From contig NZ_JH660660.1 in assembly GCF_000262545.1 (NCBI RefSeq), positions 1,450,975-1,514,974 of the forward strand: a stretch of 64,000 bases of DNA, written 5' to 3'. The notes beneath the pieces are model-generated. The model searched no databases. It worked only from the letters and a program-made list of their open reading frames with translations, and was not told where the DNA came from. A program made the translations under genes and the position numbers. Shown here in pieces: positions 17,926 to 27,827 of this stretch. The stretch's first letter is position 1; every line of letters begins with the position of its first letter. This stretch comes from Prevotella bivia DSM 20514. Lineage in GTDB: Bacteria > Bacteroidota > Bacteroidia > Bacteroidales > Bacteroidaceae.

Positions 17926-19623
17926 TTACATCGAATCTAAAGTTACAATAAAGCAACTTCCCTTTCCGATTTCGCTCTCCACTCGAATGTTTCCTCCATG
18001 CGCTTCCACAAAATCTTTCGAGATGGCCAATCCCAAGCCAGATCCTTGCACCTTGGTGCCTGGTACACGAAAATAACGTTCGAAGATAGTGTCATGGTAA
18101 CGAGGATCAATACCTTTTCCAAAGTCACGTACATAGATTTCAATGCGATTCTCTGTTTGGCGGGCACCGATTATGATACGCCCATGTTGTGGTGAATAGT
18201 GAATGGCATTGCCGAGCAGATTTGTGATTACCCAAGCAATCTTCTCTGAATCCACAAAAAGTTTGGGCATCTTCTCGGTAGGATATTCTACTTCAATATT
18301 GCATTCGAATCGCTCGGCCAGCACATGGGTAGCCTTGATAGCATATTCAATAAGCTCAATAGGTTTGGTCACCTTGGGGCTAAGTTGCAAGGAGCCACTC
18401 TCTACTTGAGTCATTTTGAGCAGTTCACCAGTGATTTTGAGCAGACGGTCACTGTTGTCACCTATGCTTTTGGCAAGTTCCTGCTGCTCGTCGCTCAGCG
18501 TGCCTATGCGTTTGTCTTCGAGCAATTGCAGACTCATCAGAATGGCTGATATAGGAGTCTTCAATTCATGGGAAATCACAGAGATGAAGTTGGTCTTGGC
18601 ATTGTCGAGTTCCTTGAACTTCGTCACATCGTTGAGCATCACCACGGTGCCATATTCGTCGGCCAACTTCAGATAATGTACCTCAAAATAGCTCTCCTTG
18701 TTATCCGCATAAATCTTGAGAGGTTCCTTTTCAGAGCCTCCATTTTCAGGCATTCCTTTCACCAACCTGCGCAATAAATCATTGTTTACGGAGAGAGCCA
18801 AAGCGGACTGACCTACTAACTTATCTTCAGGCAGATTGATCAGATTACTTAGAGCCGTATTGGCAAAAAGTATCTCTTGCTGTTGGTTCAAGCCCAAAAT
18901 TGGCTTGTTGATGGCACGTACCACGGTCTCCAGATACTGCTTGGCGGCAATAATACGAGCCATGTTGCTCTCTTCATAGAGTGCCAGCTGCTCGGTCATG
19001 TGATTGAAGGAAGTAGCTACAGGAGCAAACTCAGCGTCTTCGGCAAACTCCAATCTCTTGCCATAATGGCCATTGGCAATTTCGGTGATGCCTTCTATTA
19101 ACTTTTGGATAGGCGAAGATAATGATTTGGGAAAATGAATCTGCATGAATGTTGCTACACCAGCACAAAGCAATGCCATCAATATGGTCCATAACAAGGC
19201 GGTTTTAGCACTATCTGAGGCCTGTTCCGATTTGTAATAAATAGCATTTGTATTGAGACGAATAATGGTGTTGATAGCTTCGTGTAGTTGCAGCATGTTG
19301 GTAGTGGTAGGTTGCGCCAAAAAAGCATTAAAACGAGATTCGAGTCGTTCGGTCATCATCCGTTCTTCTTGCTCCGTGACATTCTTTTTCTGCAGAGCCA
19401 GATTTTCTCGAAAGTTCTTGAGCGAGTTGACACTATCTGTATAATAGATATTGGTGGCACTCAGCATCTGCTGCGCATAAGTCACCGAGTGATAGTTGTC
19501 CTTGAGAATACGCTCCGTGCTCACTTTCTGCTGATACACAGTGATGCAAGCAAAGGCACCCATCAACAGAATGGTGCCCAGCAGCAAACCAAAGAGAGAG
19601 GATATTTTGGTCTTGATTTTCAT
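17926..19623 (-). CDS. HAMP/PAS sensor histidine kinase of the kdp locus
   Basis: A 565-residue membrane kinase. TM segments lie near 8-28 and 142-162 with a periplasmic sensor part between them. A HAMP segment follows (about 162-215), then a PAS domain (about 230-340), a HisKA domain with phosphorylatable His352 in VISHELKTPISA, and an HATPase domain with NLLGNAIHYSP, DFGKGID and GSGLGLAISKDF boxes. It lies 12 bases after the NtrC-type regulator gene and is the third gene of the operon. It most likely phosphorylates that regulator, replacing the kinase half absent from the short KdpD. Confidence 0.93.
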   Translation of the reverse strand: MKIKTKISSLFGLLLGTILLMGAFACITVYQQKVSTERILKDNYHSVTYAQQMLSATNIYYTDSVNSLKNFRENLALQKKNVTEQEERMMTERLESRFNAFLAQPTTTNMLQLHEAINTIIRLNTNAIYYKSEQASDSAKTALLWTILMALLCAGVATFMQIHFPKSLSSPIQKLIEGITEIANGHYGKRLEFAEDAEFAPVATSFNHMTEQLALYEESNMARIIAAKQYLETVVRAINKPILGLNQQQEILFANTALSNLINLPEDKLVGQSALALSVNNDLLRRLVKGMPENGGSEKEPLKIYADNKESYFEVHYLKLADEYGTVVMLNDVTKFKELDNAKTNFISVISHELKTPISAILMSLQLLEDKRIGTLSDEQQELAKSIGDNSDRLLKITGELLKMTQVESGSLQLSPKVTKPIELIEYAIKATHVLAERFECNIEVEYPTEKMPKLFVDSEKIAWVITNLLGNAIHYSPQHGRIIIGARQTENRIEIYVRDFGKGIDPRYHDTIFERYFRVPGTKVQGSGLGLAISKDFVEAHGGNIRVESEIGKGSCFIVTLDSM

Positions 19624-19635
19624 ATTCGCTCAGAT

Positions 19636-20976
19636 TTATTTGAGACCATAGTCTTCGATTTTCCGATAGAGAGTAGTCAGCCCAATCTTCATCAGTCGAG
19701 CCGCCTCTGTCTTGTTGCCCCCTGTATAAGCTAACATTTTGATGATGTGATGTCTTTCGATTGTGGCTAATTCCAATCCACTTCCACTTTCACCTTCATT
19801 CCATTGCACCTCCAAGGGAAGATCTTGAGCCGTCAGCTTGTCTCCTGAGGCAAGAATCACGCTCCGTTCCATCACATTGCGAAGTTCGCGGATATTTCCT
19901 TTCCACGGATATCGTCTAATCAATGCGATGAAAGAATCATCCATGCCATCAATCGGCTTGTTTTGCTTATGGGCAAAAGCCTGCATGAAGTTTTCAGCCA
20001 ATAGACGGATATCTTCACCACGCTCTCTAAGAGGAGGTAAGTCGATGGAAAAGATAGAGAGGCGGTAGTATAAATCTTCGCGGAAGTTGCCCTGCGCAAT
20101 TTCTTCTTTTAGATGACGGTTGGTAGCGGCAATCACACGCACATCGGCATGGTGGCTTACCATATCGCCCACTGGGATGTAATCGCCTGTTTCTAGCACA
20201 CGCAGCATCTTCACCTGTAGCGATAGGGGCATTTCGCCAATTTCATCGAGAAAGAGTGTACCATTTTTGGCTTGGTCAAACAAGCCTCGTTTGTCCTTTG
20301 TAGCCCCCGTAAAGGCGCCAGCCTTGTAACCAAAGAGCTCGCTTTCGAGCAGTTCCGGGCTTAACGCACCGCAGTTGACGGCCACAAAAGAGCCACCACG
20401 ACGGTTACTCAGTTGATGTATAGCCCCTGCAAAGACTTCCTTACCCGTACCGGTTTCCCCCGTAAGTAAGATGGTCGTATCGGTAGGAGCTACTTTGCGA
20501 GCCATATCAATAGCCCCCAATAAGGGTTTGGACTTCCCGATGATGGTGTCGAACGAATACTCCTTGTCGATGATTTTTTCCAGTTGAGTCACCTTGCGGC
20601 GCAGTCCGATTTCCTCGCACGCACGGCCAATCATCGGGATGATGCGAATGTTGTCATCTCCTTTCACTAAGTAATCGTAAGCCCCATTTTTGATGGCACT
20701 TACTCCGTCCTGGATGTTTCCATGGGCGGTCAAGAGGATAATTTTCCCCTCGGGTAGCAGTTTATTCCATTCGGACACTACTTCCACCCCATTGCCATCG
20801 GGCAGGAATACGTCGAGCAGCACTACATCAGGCGCCTCCTTCTGCAACATCTTCTTACCAGTAGTCAATGAGTCAGCCTCGACTACCGTATATCCTTCGA
20901 GCGAGATGAGACGTGCCATTAGTTTACGCAGGCTCGGTTCATCATCTACTATCAATACTTTCTTATTTTGATTCAT
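19636..20976 (-). CDS. NtrC-family sigma-54-dependent response regulator
   Basis: A 446-residue activator with three domains. The receiver has phospho-acceptor Asp55 in [13 protein letters not shown]. The AAA+ domain has GETGTGKE, the sigma-54-contact loop GAFTGA, and [14 protein letters not shown]. The C-terminal Fis-type helix-turn-helix is [20 protein letters not shown]. The GAFTGA loop shows that it works with sigma-54 RNA polymerase. The only good sigma-54 promoter I see nearby is in front of the kdp structural operon, so it is inferred to control potassium-pump expression. Confidence 0.94.
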
Positions 20977-21045: not shown

Positions 21046-22182
21046 TCAGGATAATATGATTAAATCAGTATTCAGTTGCTTCAGAGCGTCCAAAAACGTG
21101 CGATATTTTTTGATATCCCATAAAATTCTGGGCATTCGGAAAGCAGGCTGTCCCAAGCAGACGGTGGAGATAGGTTGCTCATGACATAAATCGATGATGG
21201 CTTCCAACACATGAGGCGAAGTGCGCTCCACCACCTTTCCACCCAACTCTGCCACTAGCTTGAAATGATCCAACAGGTGACGTTGGTCAGCTAAAGGAAT
21301 ATTATCTGTATTTTCATGTGGAGTTTGTACATAGAGCACTAGAAAACTACAGTCGTATTGTTCGGCCAACCTCGATACCCGTCGGATGATATGTCGTGGT
21401 GAGGTGGGATGGCTGCTGATACAAGCCAAGAGAGGCCCCCGTTTGGTAGGCGATTGTTGAGTCTCAGCACTAGACTCACTCAGCACCTTCTTTTCCACTC
21501 GAAAAGCCACCTCTTTCAGCGCCAGTTCACGCAGACGGAGGATATGGTCGGTTTGGAAGAAGTGGTCCAAGGCCTGCTGGATATTTTCCTTCCGGTATAT
21601 TTTTCCGGCTTTCAGGCGGTCAAGAAGTTCCTCGGCGGTAAGATCGATATTGACCACTTCATCCGCTTCGCGCAACACGGTGTCGGGGATGCGCTCCCCT
21701 ACATCAATACCAACGATATGGTGCACCTCTTCGTTCAGGCTTTCGATGTGCTGGATATTGACCGCACTGATGACGTTGATACCTGCATCCAGCAGATTCA
21801 TCACATCTTGCCAGCGTTTGGCGTTTCGACTTCCATCGATGTTGGAGTGAGCCAGTTCATCTACTATAACAACTTCAGGATGTCTGGCCACGATGGCATC
21901 CACATCCATCTCCTCTACCAGCTTGCCTTTATAGTAAACCTGTTTGCGGGGGATGACAGTCAGTCCGTCGATTAGAGCCTTCGTTCCTGGTCGGCCATGT
22001 GTTTCGATATAACCAATCTGCACATCCACTCCCTGCTGCTGCATTTCGTGCGCATCGCACAGCATCCGATAGCTCTTGCCCACACCGGCAATCATTCCGA
22101 TGTAGATCTTGAACTTCCCCCTGCGCTGGCGTTTGATGAGTTGCAGAAAGTATTCGGCACTATGCGTATCTGTTTTATTCAT
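21046..22182 (-). CDS. kdpD: Kinase-less KdpD (KdpD sensor domain plus universal-stress-protein domain)
   Basis: A 378-residue protein that matches only the cytoplasmic N-terminal part of classical KdpD. It has the P-loop GMIAGVGKS (29-37), GYIETHGRPGTKALIDGL, VVIVDELAHSNIDGSRN, then a USP-like domain (about 250-375, starting LLACISSHPTSPR). The four TM helices and the kinase core of E. coli KdpD (about 890 residues) are absent. This short form is common in Bacteroidetes kdp loci. It is the first gene of the regulatory operon and probably senses ATP, potassium or cyclic-di-AMP and modulates the separate kinase downstream. Confidence 0.93.
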   Translation of the reverse strand: MNKTDTHSAEYFLQLIKRQRRGKFKIYIGMIAGVGKSYRMLCDAHEMQQQGVDVQIGYIETHGRPGTKALIDGLTVIPRKQVYYKGKLVEEMDVDAIVARHPEVVIVDELAHSNIDGSRNAKRWQDVMNLLDAGINVISAVNIQHIESLNEEVHHIVGIDVGERIPDTVLREADEVVNIDLTAEELLDRLKAGKIYRKENIQQALDHFFQTDHILRLRELALKEVAFRVEKKVLSESSAETQQSPTKRGPLLACISSHPTSPRHIIRRVSRLAEQYDCSFLVLYVQTPHENTDNIPLADQRHLLDHFKLVAELGGKVVERTSPHVLEAIIDLCHEQPISTVCLGQPAFRMPRILWDIKKYRTFLDALKQLNTDLIILS

Positions 22183-22283
22183 GAAGTTTATTCCTTTTTA
22201 CTATCGTTAATAAGTCGTGCAAATTATATGCCAGCATCGTAATGTGTTATATTTGAGTATATTTCTTTCTTTTCCCGGCTTAT

Positions 22284-22402
22284 ACCCTTCTATTTTGGAA
22301 GGGTCGTTTTTCAAAATGAAAAAATGATTGTCTCAGATAGTTGAAAGTCCACTTCAGACAGGTCTTATTATTCCGAAAATACACCTTTCCATTTTGGGAA
22401 GG
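22284..22402 (+). promoter_or_regulatory. Two palindromes, candidate enhancer sites for the kdp activator
   Basis: ACCCTTC-7-GAAGGGT (22284-22304) and CCTTTCC-attttg-GGAAGG (22384-22402) share the pattern CCTT-C-attttGG-GAAGG. They lie about 100 and 200 bases upstream of the sigma-54 promoter, the usual distance for NtrC-type enhancer sites. They may also control the divergent kdpD operon. A third weak palindrome, CGAGA/TCTCG, lies near 22420-22441. Confidence 0.6.
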
Positions 22403-22477
22403 ATAAAATAACTCAATTTCGAGAGATAAAATTATTTCTCGTTGGTTATGAGCTCCTTACGGAGTGTCTGTCTCATC

Positions 22478-22492
22478 TGGCATGTGCATTGC
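22478..22492 (+). promoter_or_regulatory. Sigma-54 promoter of the kdp operon
   Basis: TGGCATGTGCATTGC has the invariant GG and GC dinucleotides exactly ten bases apart and matches TGGCAC-N5-TTGC in nearly every position. Transcription would start near 22504. The first small reading frame starts at 22545. The adjacent NtrC-type activator supports it. Confidence 0.8.
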
Positions 22493-22544
22493 CCATAGAG
22501 AAGTAGAATTTTATAACAGAAGTTTAACTCTAAAAAAGTATGAA

Positions 22545-22646
22545 ATGACGGAATTATTTTCAGTAGGTTTTGCAGTCTGTATGCTCAGTGGCATCGGCTG
22601 CTTTGTGATGTTCAACAAATGTATCGACTGGTTCGAGAAAATCTAA
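22545..22646 (+). CDS. 33-residue single-membrane-span microprotein ahead of kdpF
   Basis: The frame begins MTELFSVGFAVCMLSGIG, with one membrane segment, and ends CIDWFEKI. It starts about 40 bases after the predicted sigma-54 transcription start and stops 12 bases before kdpF. Size and topology resemble KdpF, so it may be another small stabilising subunit of the Kdp pump. I do not know a named family for it. Longer upstream starts in this frame would lie at or before the promoter and are unlikely. Confidence 0.6.
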   Translation: MTELFSVGFAVCMLSGIGCFVMFNKCIDWFEKI

Positions 22647-22658
22647 AAAACTCAAAAA

Positions 22659-22742
22659 ATGATGTACACAGCTTTATTTATCGTAGGCATCCTCCTGTTC
22701 GGCTATATGATGTATGTACTTCTGAAGCCGGAAAGGTTCTAA
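22659..22742 (+). CDS. kdpF: KdpF-like potassium-transporting ATPase small subunit
   Basis: This 27-residue hydrophobic peptide begins MMYTALFIVGILLFGYMM and ends in the KdpF-like tail LLKPERF. Classical KdpF is 29 residues with one transmembrane helix and a similar KPE(R/K)F end. It lies 19 bases before kdpA, in the position of kdpF in E. coli. It stabilises the KdpFABC complex in the membrane. The second Met could also be the start. Confidence 0.85.
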   Translation: MMYTALFIVGILLFGYMMYVLLKPERF

Positions 22743-22761: not shown

Positions 22762-24468
22762 ATGAATACAGAATTAGTAGGCGTTGCGGCGCAAATCGTA
22801 CTCATGGTGGGGCTCAGCTATCCCTTGGGTAAATACATAGCGAGAGTTTATAAAGGAGAGAAAACGTGGCTCGACTTCTTGCGTCCCGTAGAACGGATGA
22901 TATTCCGCTTGAGTGGAATCAATCCTGGGGAAGAAATGAACTGGAAACAGTTTCTTCGTGCCTTGCTCACGGTGAACCTCTTCTGGTTTGTATGGGGCAT
23001 GGTGCTGCTGGTACTTCAAGGTAGCCTGCCGCTCAATCCTGACGGCAACTTAGGACAGACTGCCCATCAGGCGTTCAACACCTGCATCAGTTTCATGGTC
23101 AACTGCAACCTACAGCACTATAGCGGCGAGAGTGGCTTGACCTATTTCACTCAGCTCTTCGTCATCATGCTCTTCCAGTTTATCACCGCTGCTTGTGGTA
23201 TGGCAGCTATGGCGGGCATCATGAAAGCATTGGCGGCCAAGACTACCCAGACTATTGGCAACTTCTGGAACTACCTAGTGCTGAGTGTCACCCGCATCCT
23301 TCTACCACTCTCCCTTATCGTAGGTTTCATCCTCATTGTAGAAGGTGTACCTATGGGTTTCGATGGCAAGATGGAAGTCACTACCTTGGAAGGAACCGTT
23401 CAGCAGATTTCACAAGGTCCTGCGGCCGCTATTATTCCCATCAAGCAACTGGGTACCAATGGTGGTGGCTACTTTGGTGTGAACTCCTCTCATCCCCTTG
23501 AGAACCCCACTTACCTGACCAATATGGTAGAGTGCATCTCCATCCTGCTTATCCCCATGGCCATGGCTTTCGCTTTTGGTTTCTATCTGAAACGTAAGCG
23601 TTTGGGTTCTGTGATTTATGGTGTGATGCTGGTGGGTTTCTTAATGGGTGTGGGCATCAATGTTAGCCAGGAGATGGGTGGCAACTCGCGTATTGATGCT
23701 ATGGGCATCGCCCAAAACGGAGGCTCCATGGAAGGCAAGGAAGTGCGCTTTGGTTCAGCTGCTACCGGTTTGTGGAGCGTAGTGACCACTGTCACTTCCA
23801 ACGGTTCAGTCAATGGTATGCACGACTCTACCATGCCACTTTCTGGTATGATGGAGATGCTAAATATGCAGATTAACACTTGGTTTGGAGGCGTGGGTGT
23901 AGGCTGGATGAATTACTTCACATTCATCATCATGGCTGTATTCATCAGCGGATTGATGGTGGGTCGTACGCCTGAGTTCTTAGGGCATAAGGTAGAAGCG
24001 CGTGAGATGAAGATTGCCTCTATCGTAGCCCTGCTTCATCCCTTTATTATCTTGGTGGGAACAGCTTTGGCTGCCTATCTCTTTGTCTATGCCCCCGACT
24101 TTGTAGCGAGTGAAGGCGGATGGCTCAACAATCCTGGCTATCATGGACTGGGTGAGATACTCTATGAATATACCTCTTCGGCAGCCAACAATGGTTCTGG
24201 TTTTGAGGGTTTGGGAGATAATACTTGGTTTTGGAACTTCTCTTGTGGATTGGTGTTGATATTAGGCCGTTTCGTCCCCATCATCGGACAAGTAGCCATA
24301 GCAGGTTTGTTGGCCGAGAAGCGTTATGTGCCTGAGAGTGCAGGCACGCTGCGCACCGATACCGCTACCTTCGGTGTGATGACCTTTGCCGTGATCCTCA
24401 TCATAGCCGCCTTGTCGTTCTTCCCTGCACAAGCACTGAGTACAATCGCCGAACATTTTAGTCTCTAA
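22762..24468 (+). CDS. kdpA: Potassium-transporting ATPase subunit A
   Basis: A 568-residue membrane protein and the potassium-selective channel-like subunit of the KdpFABC pump. It has the family's pore-loop segments, for example [36 protein letters not shown] and [14 protein letters not shown], the GG- and SN-containing filter regions, with about ten hydrophobic helices. Length is normal for the family. It is followed by kdpB after 22 bases, in the order F-A-B-C. It should be expressed under potassium limitation from the sigma-54 promoter upstream. Confidence 0.97.
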
Positions 24469-24490: not shown

Positions 24491-26524
24491 ATGAAAGATA
24501 ATAAATCAGCCTCTCTGTTTCAGAGAGACCAAGTCAAAGAAAGTATCAAGCAATCTTTTGTAAAGCTCAATCCTCGCTTGATGATCAAGAATCCGGTAAT
24601 GTTCACCGTAGAGGTATGCACAGTATTCATGATGTTAGTCACCGGCTATTCGCTTTTTAGTCCTGCTCAAGACTCGTTTACCTACAATTTGTTGGTTTTC
24701 ATTATTCTACTGGTCACCTTGCTGTTTGCAAACTTTGCCGAAGCCATTGCCGAGGCTCGCGGCAAGGCCCAAGCCGATAGCCTGCGTAAGACGCGAGAAG
24801 AGACACCAGCCAAGCAATTGATAGATGGTAAGGTAAAGCATGTAAGTAGTTCGATGCTCCGTAAAGGCGATCTGTTCACTTGCGAGGCTGGCGATGTGAT
24901 TCCAGCCGATGGTGAGATTATCGAAGGTTTGGCATCCATCGACGAGAGTGCCATCACCGGTGAATCAGCCCCCGTAATTCGTGAGGCAGGTGGTGATAAG
25001 AGTTCCGTAACAGGTGGAACGAAGGTGCTGTCCGACCACATCGTAGCCCGCGTCACCACCAGTCCGGGTGAGAGTTTCCTCGACAAGATGATTGCCTTGG
25101 TCGAAGGGGCCTCGCGTCAGAAGACTCCCAATGAGATAGCGCTGACCATCCTCCTATCCGCCTTTACCTTGGTGTTCATCATCGTGTGCATCACCTTAAA
25201 GCCTATGGCCGACTATTCGGGCGCTACCATTAGCATCGCAGCTTTCCTCTCGCTCTTCGTCTGCCTCATTCCCACTACCATCGGAGGGCTGCTCTCAGCC
25301 ATAGGCATTGCTGGTATGAACCGTGCCTTGCGTGCCAATGTCATCACCAAGAGCGGTAAGGCAGTGGAAACGGCTGGCGATGTCGATACCCTCTTGCTCG
25401 ACAAGACAGGAACCATCACCATCGGCAACCGCAAAGCTACTGGGTTTTATCTGGTGAAAGGTATGGATCCGCAACGTTTTGTATCAGCCTGTCTGCTCTC
25501 GTCCGTGTCCGATGATACCCCTGAAGGAAAATCAATCATCGACTTGGGCCGCCAACAAGGAGCCCACATGCGGCAGCTCTGCATAGAGGGTTCACACATG
25601 ATCAAGTTCTCGGCCGAAACCAAATGCTCGGGCATCGACCTGCAAGACGGTACCGAAATCCGTAAAGGCGCTTATCAAGCTATCCGTCACATCGTAGAGG
25701 CGGCAGGCAATACCTTCCCCACGGAGATTGAGGTGCGCATTGATCAGATAACCAGCAATGGTGGCACTCCGTTGGTAGTCAGCATCAACAAAGAGGTGGC
25801 CGGAGTTATCGAATTGCAAGATATTATCAAACCGGGCATTCAAGAGCGTTTCAGCCGTCTGCGCAAGATGGGAGTGAAAACGGTGATGGTGACAGGCGAT
25901 AATCCGCTCACCGCCAAATATATTGCCGAGCAAGCCGGCGTGGACGACTTCATTGCCGAAGCCAAACCCGAGGATAAGATGGAGTATATCAAGCGCGAAC
26001 AGCAAGCAGGCAAGCTGGTGGCTATGATGGGCGATGGCACCAACGATGCTCCTGCCTTGGCACAAGCCAATGTGGGTGTGGCAATGAATAGCGGTACACA
26101 GGCAGCCAAGGAAGCCGGTAATATGGTAGATCTCGACAACGATCCTACCAAACTGATAGAAATTGTAGAGATCGGTAAGCAGCTGCTCATGACTCGCGGC
26201 ACTCTGACCACCTTCTCTATTGCCAACGATGTAGCCAAATACTTTGCCATCGTTCCGGCCTTGTTTATGGTGTCCATTCCTCAGTTACAAGCTCTAAATA
26301 TTATGCAACTGCATAGCCCCGAGAGTGCGATACTATCTGCTGTCATCTTCAATGCCATTATCATTCCTATCCTGATTCCATTGGCCTTGCGAGGAGTACA
26401 GTATAAGCCTATAGGTGCATCGGCCCTGCTCCGTCGCAACTTGCTTATCTATGGATTAGGTGGAGTCATCGCCCCCTTTGTAGGCATCAAACTCATCGAT
26501 CTGCTAGTAGGTCTTTTCTTTTAA
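24491..26524 (+). CDS. kdpB: Potassium-transporting ATPase ATP-binding subunit B
   Basis: A 677-residue P-type ATPase. It shows the actuator motif ITGESAPV (TGES), the phosphorylation loop [11 protein letters not shown] with the catalytic Asp, the nucleotide-binding part [13 protein letters not shown], and the hinge [11 protein letters not shown] with [15 protein letters not shown]. Membrane helices are at both ends. It hydrolyses ATP to drive potassium through KdpA. Length and motif set are complete. Confidence 0.98.
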
Positions 26525-26545: not shown

Positions 26546-27118
26546 ATGAAAAATTTAATCAAGTCGGCACGAATTACAATCGCATTCTGCCTTGTTCTTA
26601 GTATAGGATACATATTTGTATTATGGCTCTTTGCACGTATCGCTTCTCCGGGTGATGGAAATGCAGAAACGATAACGCTGAATGGACAAACTGTTGGAGC
26701 TGCCAATGTGGGACAGCTCTTTACCCAAGACATATACTTCTGGGGACGTCCATCGTGTGCGGGCGATAGCTATGATGCGACCTCGTCGTGCGGAAGCAAC
26801 AAGGGTGTGACGAATGAGGAGTATCTAGCTGAAGTCGAAGCACACATTGATACATTCTTGGTACATCACCCCTACTTGAAGCGTAGCGAAGTCCCCGCCG
26901 AAATGGTCACAGCCAGTGGTTCTGGACTCGATCCTGATATCACGCCCGAATGTGCATACGTACAAGTGAAACGTGTGGCCCATGCTCGCGGATGGCGTGA
27001 GGAGGATGTCAAGAAGATTGTCGATGAGCAAGTACAAGGTTCTCTCTTTGGACTCTTCGGACCTGAGAAAGTAAATGTATTGAAGCTTAATGTAGCACTA
27101 AATAATATAACCAAATAG
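26546..27118 (+). CDS. kdpC: Potassium-transporting ATPase subunit C
   Basis: A 190-residue protein with one N-terminal membrane helix (FCLVLSIGYIFVLWLFA), the conserved segment LFTQDIYFWGRPSCAGDSYDA, then SGSGLDPDITPECAYVQVKRVAHARG and a C-terminal helix. KdpC assists ATP binding and assembly of the pump. The SGSGLDP segment is characteristic. It is the fourth gene of the operon, 21 bases after kdpB. Confidence 0.96.
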   Translation: MKNLIKSARITIAFCLVLSIGYIFVLWLFARIASPGDGNAETITLNGQTVGAANVGQLFTQDIYFWGRPSCAGDSYDATSSCGSNKGVTNEEYLAEVEAHIDTFLVHHPYLKRSEVPAEMVTASGSGLDPDITPECAYVQVKRVAHARGWREEDVKKIVDEQVQGSLFGLFGPEKVNVLKLNVALNNITK

Positions 27119-27128
27119 TAAGGATCTT

Positions 27129-27827
27129 ATGAAAAAAATATTGTCAGTATTCCTGCTAAGCACTCTTATTGTGTCGCCTAAACTTCAAGCACATGATTTC
27201 AAAGTGAATGGGAAAATAGATCTGGTAAGCGATTATGTGTGGCGTGGTGCCTATCAGAATTCAGGATTTTCAGTACAACCTACTTTGGCGCTTTCCTACC
27301 GCAATCTATCCTTATCGGCATGGGGCAGTCAAAGTTTAACTAAGTCAGATGGTGCACAGGAGTTTGACTTGATTTTGAACTATTCCATTGGTCGGTTTGG
27401 TATAACATTATTAGACTATTGGTGGAATGGTATTGCCGCACCCTATGGTGACTACAAACATGATCACCATTTCGAAGCATCATTGAGCTATACCATTAGC
27501 GAACGAATCCCACTTACATTAAGTTGGTCAACAATGTTTGCAGGGGGAGATGACAATCAATCGGGCAACCGTGCTTATTCAACCTACATCAATGCCTCAT
27601 ACAATATTCAATGCCCTTATGAGGTAACTCTTACTCCGTCAATTGGTTTTACGCCTTGGAAAGGTATGTATAATGCAGATGGAGCTACTGTTGCAGATAT
27701 TGCACTCAAGGCAAGCAAGGATATAAAAATTACAGAGCGATTTTCAATTCCGCTATTTGTGCAAGCTATTGTGGCACCTTCCTCCGACAAGACCTATTTG
27801 CTCGGTGGAGTTAGTCTAGGTTTTTAA
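27129..27827 (+). CDS. Outer-membrane beta-barrel protein (TorF/porin-like) after kdpC
   Basis: A 232-residue protein with a signal peptide (MKKILSVFLLSTLIVSPKLQA) and alternating strands typical of a small barrel. It begins with KVNGKIDLVSDYVWRGAYQN, the start seen in TorF-like proteins, and ends with Phe (GGVSLGF), the outer-membrane insertion signal. It starts ten bases after kdpC, so it is in the kdp operon. It may aid ion entry through the outer membrane under potassium stress, which is a guess from context. Confidence 0.75.
   Translation: MKKILSVFLLSTLIVSPKLQAHDFKVNGKIDLVSDYVWRGAYQNSGFSVQPTLALSYRNLSLSAWGSQSLTKSDGAQEFDLILNYSIGRFGITLLDYWWNGIAAPYGDYKHDHHFEASLSYTISERIPLTLSWSTMFAGGDDNQSGNRAYSTYINASYNIQCPYEVTLTPSIGFTPWKGMYNADGATVADIALKASKDIKITERFSIPLFVQAIVAPSSDKTYLLGGVSLGF

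Follow-up and report, generated by a model that had tools for sequence, protein, structure and literature searches.

The kdp genes encode an emergency potassium pump. In Escherichia coli, kdp is controlled by the OmpR-type regulator KdpE and sigma-70, and KdpD is a single kinase protein. For the Bacteroidota, a dominant phylum in the gut and in the environment, we know of little work on the role of sigma-54. A different kind of kdp control has been described in Desulfovibrio vulgaris where, according to the available parts of two publications, DVU3334 regulates kdpFABC and KdpD is split in two (PMC3333781), while DVU3334, which carries GAFTGA, is listed in the sigma-54 regulome, its target being kdp (PMC4641369). 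The window analyzed here, 64,000 nucleotides of Prevotella bivia DSM 20514 (contig NZ_JH660660.1, positions 1,450,975 to 1,514,974), contains a kdp locus that has its pump and a KdpD-type sensor domain in common with the KdpD/KdpE-kdpFABC system of E. coli, but carries an AAA+/Fis regulator and a kinase on a separate gene where E. coli has the OmpR-type KdpE, sigma-70 and a KdpD with its own kinase. With the DVU3334-DVU3339.1 region of D. vulgaris, compared through the available part of its published description, the locus shares a GAFTGA regulator and a divided KdpD, there consisting of a sensor/UspA protein and a kinase protein; D. vulgaris belongs to another phylum, however, its regulator lies inside the kdp operon, and two further regulators target kdp. 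The locus also resembles the systems of NtrC/AtoC-class enhancer-binding proteins in the receiver-AAA-Fis architecture, the GAFTGA loop and a palindrome upstream of a -24/-12 promoter, but kdp loci differ in a tightly kept spacing of 92-98 bases, and the regulator of the window scores below every NCBIfam equivalog cut-off among the matches shown.

Our reading is that kdp in this organism is transcribed from a sigma-54 promoter under a divergently encoded NtrC-type activator acting at a conserved site about 95 bases upstream, to which we assign a probability of about 0.86 from sequence comparison. This would provide one sharply defined sigma-54 target in the Bacteroidota, with activator, predicted binding site and promoter. 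An earlier note, made from the letters of this stretch, had presented the arrangement as a different logic from that of E. coli for the same transporter: the contrast is supported by the way in which motif and promoter track the NtrC-type regulator, but it is not new, given the precedent of DVU3334 in the available literature on D. vulgaris. Since this kind of control is already known, what is added here is the lineage, the motif, the geometry and the reach across the phylum. A literature search that took in few subscription papers turned up no account of kdp being under sigma-54 control in Bacteroidota; the available part of a survey of sigma-54 regulons (PMC12316311) mentions neither kdp nor potassium, and kdp is not mentioned in the main text, as far as available, of a flavobacterial start-site map (PMC9723704).

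The plus strand of the window carries all of the kdp operon; facing away from it across a gap of 361 bases is a regulator operon of three genes on the minus strand. The gene kdpF (22659-22742; TIGR02115, 29.5 bits, above cut-off) is followed by kdpA (22762-24468), kdpB (24491-26524) and kdpC (26546-27118), the latter three recognized with both Pfam and NCBIfam; the KdpFABC pump is complete, with KdpF, KdpA and KdpB passing their NCBIfam cut-offs and KdpC passing one of several. The opposite operon encodes a KdpD N-terminal sensor domain protein devoid of a kinase domain (21046-22182), an NtrC-type response regulator, the presumed activator (19636-20976; assigned from Pfam, orthologues beside kdp and a tree), and a sensor histidine kinase with HAMP, PAS, HisKA and HATPase domains by Pfam (17926-19623), presumably the partner of the regulator. 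The KdpD-like protein, of 378 residues, has PF02702 as its sole Pfam domain match (304.7 bits), while its best NCBIfam match, KdpD_non_kinase, reaches 354 bits, under the cut-off of 550; with the kinase on a separate gene, it is not a sensor-kinase fusion.

The regulator combines Response_reg (PF00072), Sigma54_activat (PF00158, 231.5 bits) and the Fis-type HTH_8 (PF02954) in Pfam searches, and GAFTGA is read in the translation of its AAA+ domain, in agreement with the earlier claim that the divergent operon encodes an NtrC-type activator with this loop. Receiver, AAA+ domain with GAFTGA and Fis-type helix-turn-helix place it among the NtrC-class sigma-54 enhancer-binding proteins and not among OmpR-type regulators such as KdpE. 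Among 70 listed regulators of kdp loci, the loop reads GAFTGA in 50, GSFTGA in 15 and GAYTGA in one, the remaining four being unmatched by the search expression. A tree of 121 relatives places 70 of the 72 kdp-linked regulators in one clade with support of 0.94 (the 72 include that of L135, where a kdpA fragment did not pass the start filter); the same clade holds eight sequences without kdpA in the fetched locus, two of which come from short contigs (L096 and L111) while another has KdpD and a kinase adjoining (L100). The genome has one rpoN match, which we count in favor of the sigma-54 reading, and six matches to NtrC-type AAA domains, three of them strong, including that of the kdp regulator.

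In front of the kdp operon a -24/-12 promoter of the sigma-54 type, TGGCATGTGCATTGC, is read directly at 22478-22492 on the plus strand, with GG at 22479-22480, ten intervening bases and GC at 22491-22492, and a start predicted near 22504. The earlier note had called this GG-N10-GC promoter perfect, which is correct for the window but not as a general form: among 18 Bacteroidaceae loci the GC of the -12 element is kept in 7, while in 11 the G is kept and the C lost, a loss that counts against the sigma-54 reading. When the 361-base intergenic region is shuffled by mononucleotides, TGGC-N7-TTGC arises on the plus strand in 0.24% of cases. Of 45 regions upstream of kdp, 22, mostly from Bacteroidales, contain TGGCAY-N5-T-N-G, where shuffles predict 0.8. 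Just 5' of the promoter lies an inverted repeat, CGAGAGATAAAATTATTTCTCG (22420-22441).

The two palindromes previously placed about 100 and 200 bases upstream are indeed there. Site B, ACCTTTCCATTTTGGGAAGGA (22383-22403; weight-matrix score 26.7), the conserved putative activator site, begins 95 bases upstream of the kdp -24 element, counted to the T of TGGCAT. Site A, ACCCTTCTATTTTGGAAGGGT (22284-22304; score 28.7), begins 194 bases upstream of the same element; from the divergent -24 element it is 71 bases away. Adjoining A is a weak third enhancer-like site, A' (22305-22325; score 9.0), which was absent from the earlier note and retains the core TTTCATTTTGAAA without the outer CC/GG. When the whole genome is searched with the enhancer model, sites A and B are the best and second-best matches (E values of 0.012 and 0.014; the next, unrelated match has 0.15) and A' ranks fifth; the model was built from 17 sequences with both window sites among them, which makes held-out loci the better test. 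The pairing of palindromes was borne out only in part, for the nearer site, at about 95 bases, keeps its position among loci, but a second copy 100 bases from the first, such as that at 194, was seen in none of the other kdp loci compared; site A may serve the divergent promoter.

The kdp system is patchy, since a search for KdpA succeeded in 18 of the 201 family genomes, in 113 of 392 from the phylum (112 above cut-off) and in 8 of 398 from the genus. For comparison we fetched 18 stretches from the family, of which one did not extend far enough for the upstream test, 80 loci by similarity to the regulator and 40 phylum hits hand-picked to spread over families. Among loci retrieved with kdpA, an AAA regulator lies upstream on the same strand in 18 of 20 from the class of the window, while 20 from other classes have an AAA regulator in eight cases, a receiver without AAA in nine and an undecided type in three; KdpE is the best NCBIfam match of all nine receiver-without-AAA regulators, each below cut-off. 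A 21-base weight matrix with consensus ACCTTTTCATTTTGATAGGGT, built from 18 Bacteroidaceae kdp loci (17 of the family plus the window), was applied with a threshold score of at least 14 within 800 bases upstream of kdpA. The motif was found in 22 of 27 held-out loci retrieved with the regulator (0.1 in shuffles) and in 17 of 24 held-out kdpA-query loci with an NtrC-type regulator (0.35 in shuffles), counts which do not represent independent events because the loci are related; its absence at threshold from five and seven of these loci, respectively, is counted against the sigma-54 reading. With the same threshold and range, the motif is absent from all nine KdpE-type loci (0.05 in shuffles), which belong to other classes of the same phylum, and present in one of the seven other kdpA-query loci. 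A single phylum would thus run this pump in two ways, through an NtrC-type or through a KdpE-type regulator, and the promoter anatomy would differ between them. Strong sites are, moreover, specific to kdp, with 67 lying at most 1.1 kb upstream of kdpA versus 4 elsewhere in 84 loci (1.61 Mb). Comparing the palindromes upstream of kdp in other Bacteroidetes was the check suggested in the earlier note, which named a lack of conservation as evidence against its proposal; the near site recurs across the phylum.

The conserved sites that co-occur with the NtrC-type regulator also stand at a fixed distance from the promoter. In 42 of 62 site-bearing loci the distance between the starts of the site and of the best GG-N10-G promoter is 92-98 bases, against 1.6 loci by shuffling, a result that is partly fitted because the scoring was written after those sequences had been seen; the 18 Bacteroidaceae loci and five further loci of the same genus are independent of that choice. 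The five same-genus loci with complete upstream sequence (another was too short to judge) have spacings of 97-98, including two whose sites score below 14. A first count, which put the -24 box 106-108 bases from the site in many non-Bacteroidales loci, was dropped after inspection; since TTTTGGCAT fits the -12 element and has GG about 12-13 bases upstream, the -24 element of these loci lies at 94-96. Helical phasing of the spacings was rejected, the Rayleigh measure being no better at 10.5 than at 12. In two Flavobacterium loci, inspection by eye revealed a reading frame of about 90 codons between the sigma-54-like site and kdpF.

These observations raise a question: Could a TAnnTTTG box and the vegetative sigma factor instead account for kdp transcription, TGGC-N7-TTGC being incidental? 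A perfect -7 box, TATATTTG, does lie upstream of kdp on the plus strand (22248-22255), and TGGC-N7-TTGC is not by itself specific to kdp, since it occurs 111 times in the genome, including repeated copies whose TATCTTTG half fits TAnnTTTG. Yet about 0.24 boxes of this kind are expected by chance in the region, as estimated from base frequencies, a start from the box at 22248-22255 would mean a leader of about 280 bases, and the sigma-54 site at a fixed enhancer distance recurs across the phylum, which leaves vegetative transcription unlikely. In the genome, copies of TGGCACTATCTTTGC are found 66 bases apart at several places; they are perhaps a vegetative promoter element present in copies.

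In many relatives the palindrome stands 3' of the stop codon of the regulator, with a run of T behind it, and a prediction tool scored 22284-22304 as terminator-like, so the palindromes, instead of binding the regulator, might serve as intrinsic terminators of its gene. Those of the window, however, lie between divergent operons where there is nothing to terminate, the core CATTTTG is conserved beyond the needs of a loop, the spacing from the promoter is fixed, and the site remains at kdp in loci where the regulator gene is at least 2 kb away (L075, L077 and L198) or convergent (L095). Given the divergent setting and the loci with a distant regulator gene, we reject this explanation as barely credible, while a double use of the palindrome in relatives, as terminator and site, is possible. 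The regulator could also be a repressor, or act jointly with another factor, rather than being the sole activator, as three response regulators target kdp in D. vulgaris according to the available part of PMC3333781; this is very unlikely here because the GAFTGA loop, together with the fixed distance of the sigma-54 promoter, implies activation.

Under sigma-54 control by the NtrC-type activator, the kdp promoter at 22478-22492 would be silent until the regulator is phosphorylated, and activation of the regulator, when potassium runs low or turgor stress sets in, would be the task of the KdpD-like protein together with the separate histidine kinase. A regulator dimer would then bind the palindrome at 22383-22403 through its Fis-type helix-turn-helix and, once bound, oligomerize, with ATP hydrolysis and the GAFTGA loop opening the sigma-54 complex; signal, phosphorylation, binding, direction of control and start sites are all predicted here from domains and motifs. 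The copies at 22284-22325 probably increase local occupancy and may also drive a mirror-image promoter, leading to more expression of the regulator operon. This candidate second sigma-54 promoter, TGGCATATAATTTGC, faces the kdpD-regulator-kinase operon on the minus strand (22219-22233) and is an addition to the earlier note; it shows the GG-N10-GC pattern and emerged from an unsupervised repeat search, in which the kdp-facing and regulator-facing promoters form an inverted repeat of each other. It stays a candidate because a strong site lies directly upstream of the regulator in only 1 of 84 loci, the count on which a general rule of autoregulation was rejected; the divergent three-gene arrangement of the window was not seen in the other loci compared. 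There is also a likeness between this candidate site and a vegetative -7 box, apart from one additional base.

Another new feature is a small open reading frame of 33 codons, ORF X (22544-22645, plus strand), which the earlier note did not contain and which would be the first gene of the kdp operon, 5' of kdpF. Its product shows one membrane helix by eye and has no match in Pfam or NCBIfam. Outside the KdpE set, 47 of 76 loci have a frame of 25-33 residues with a DWFEKI-like ending 5' of kdpF; none of the nine KdpE-type loci does. Ten Bacteroidales copies differ by 0.27, 0.16 and 0.53 at the three codon positions, a coding-like pattern that is favored by the choice of copies according to their protein ending. 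It is conceivable, if rather doubtful, that the whole phylum inherited one sigma-54 kdp switch, with an unusually rigid 92-98-base geometry, a relaxed -12 element and, in ORF X, a second membrane peptide of the operon that tracks this type of regulator rather than KdpE and perhaps connects the pump with the split sensor. At the other end of the operon, directly 3' of kdpC, lies the gene of an outer-membrane-barrel-like protein (27129-27827; TorF/Gcw_chp, below cut-off), whose homologues occupy the same position in four other loci (L072, L075, L077 and L083) and which is possibly an outer-membrane partner of the pump.
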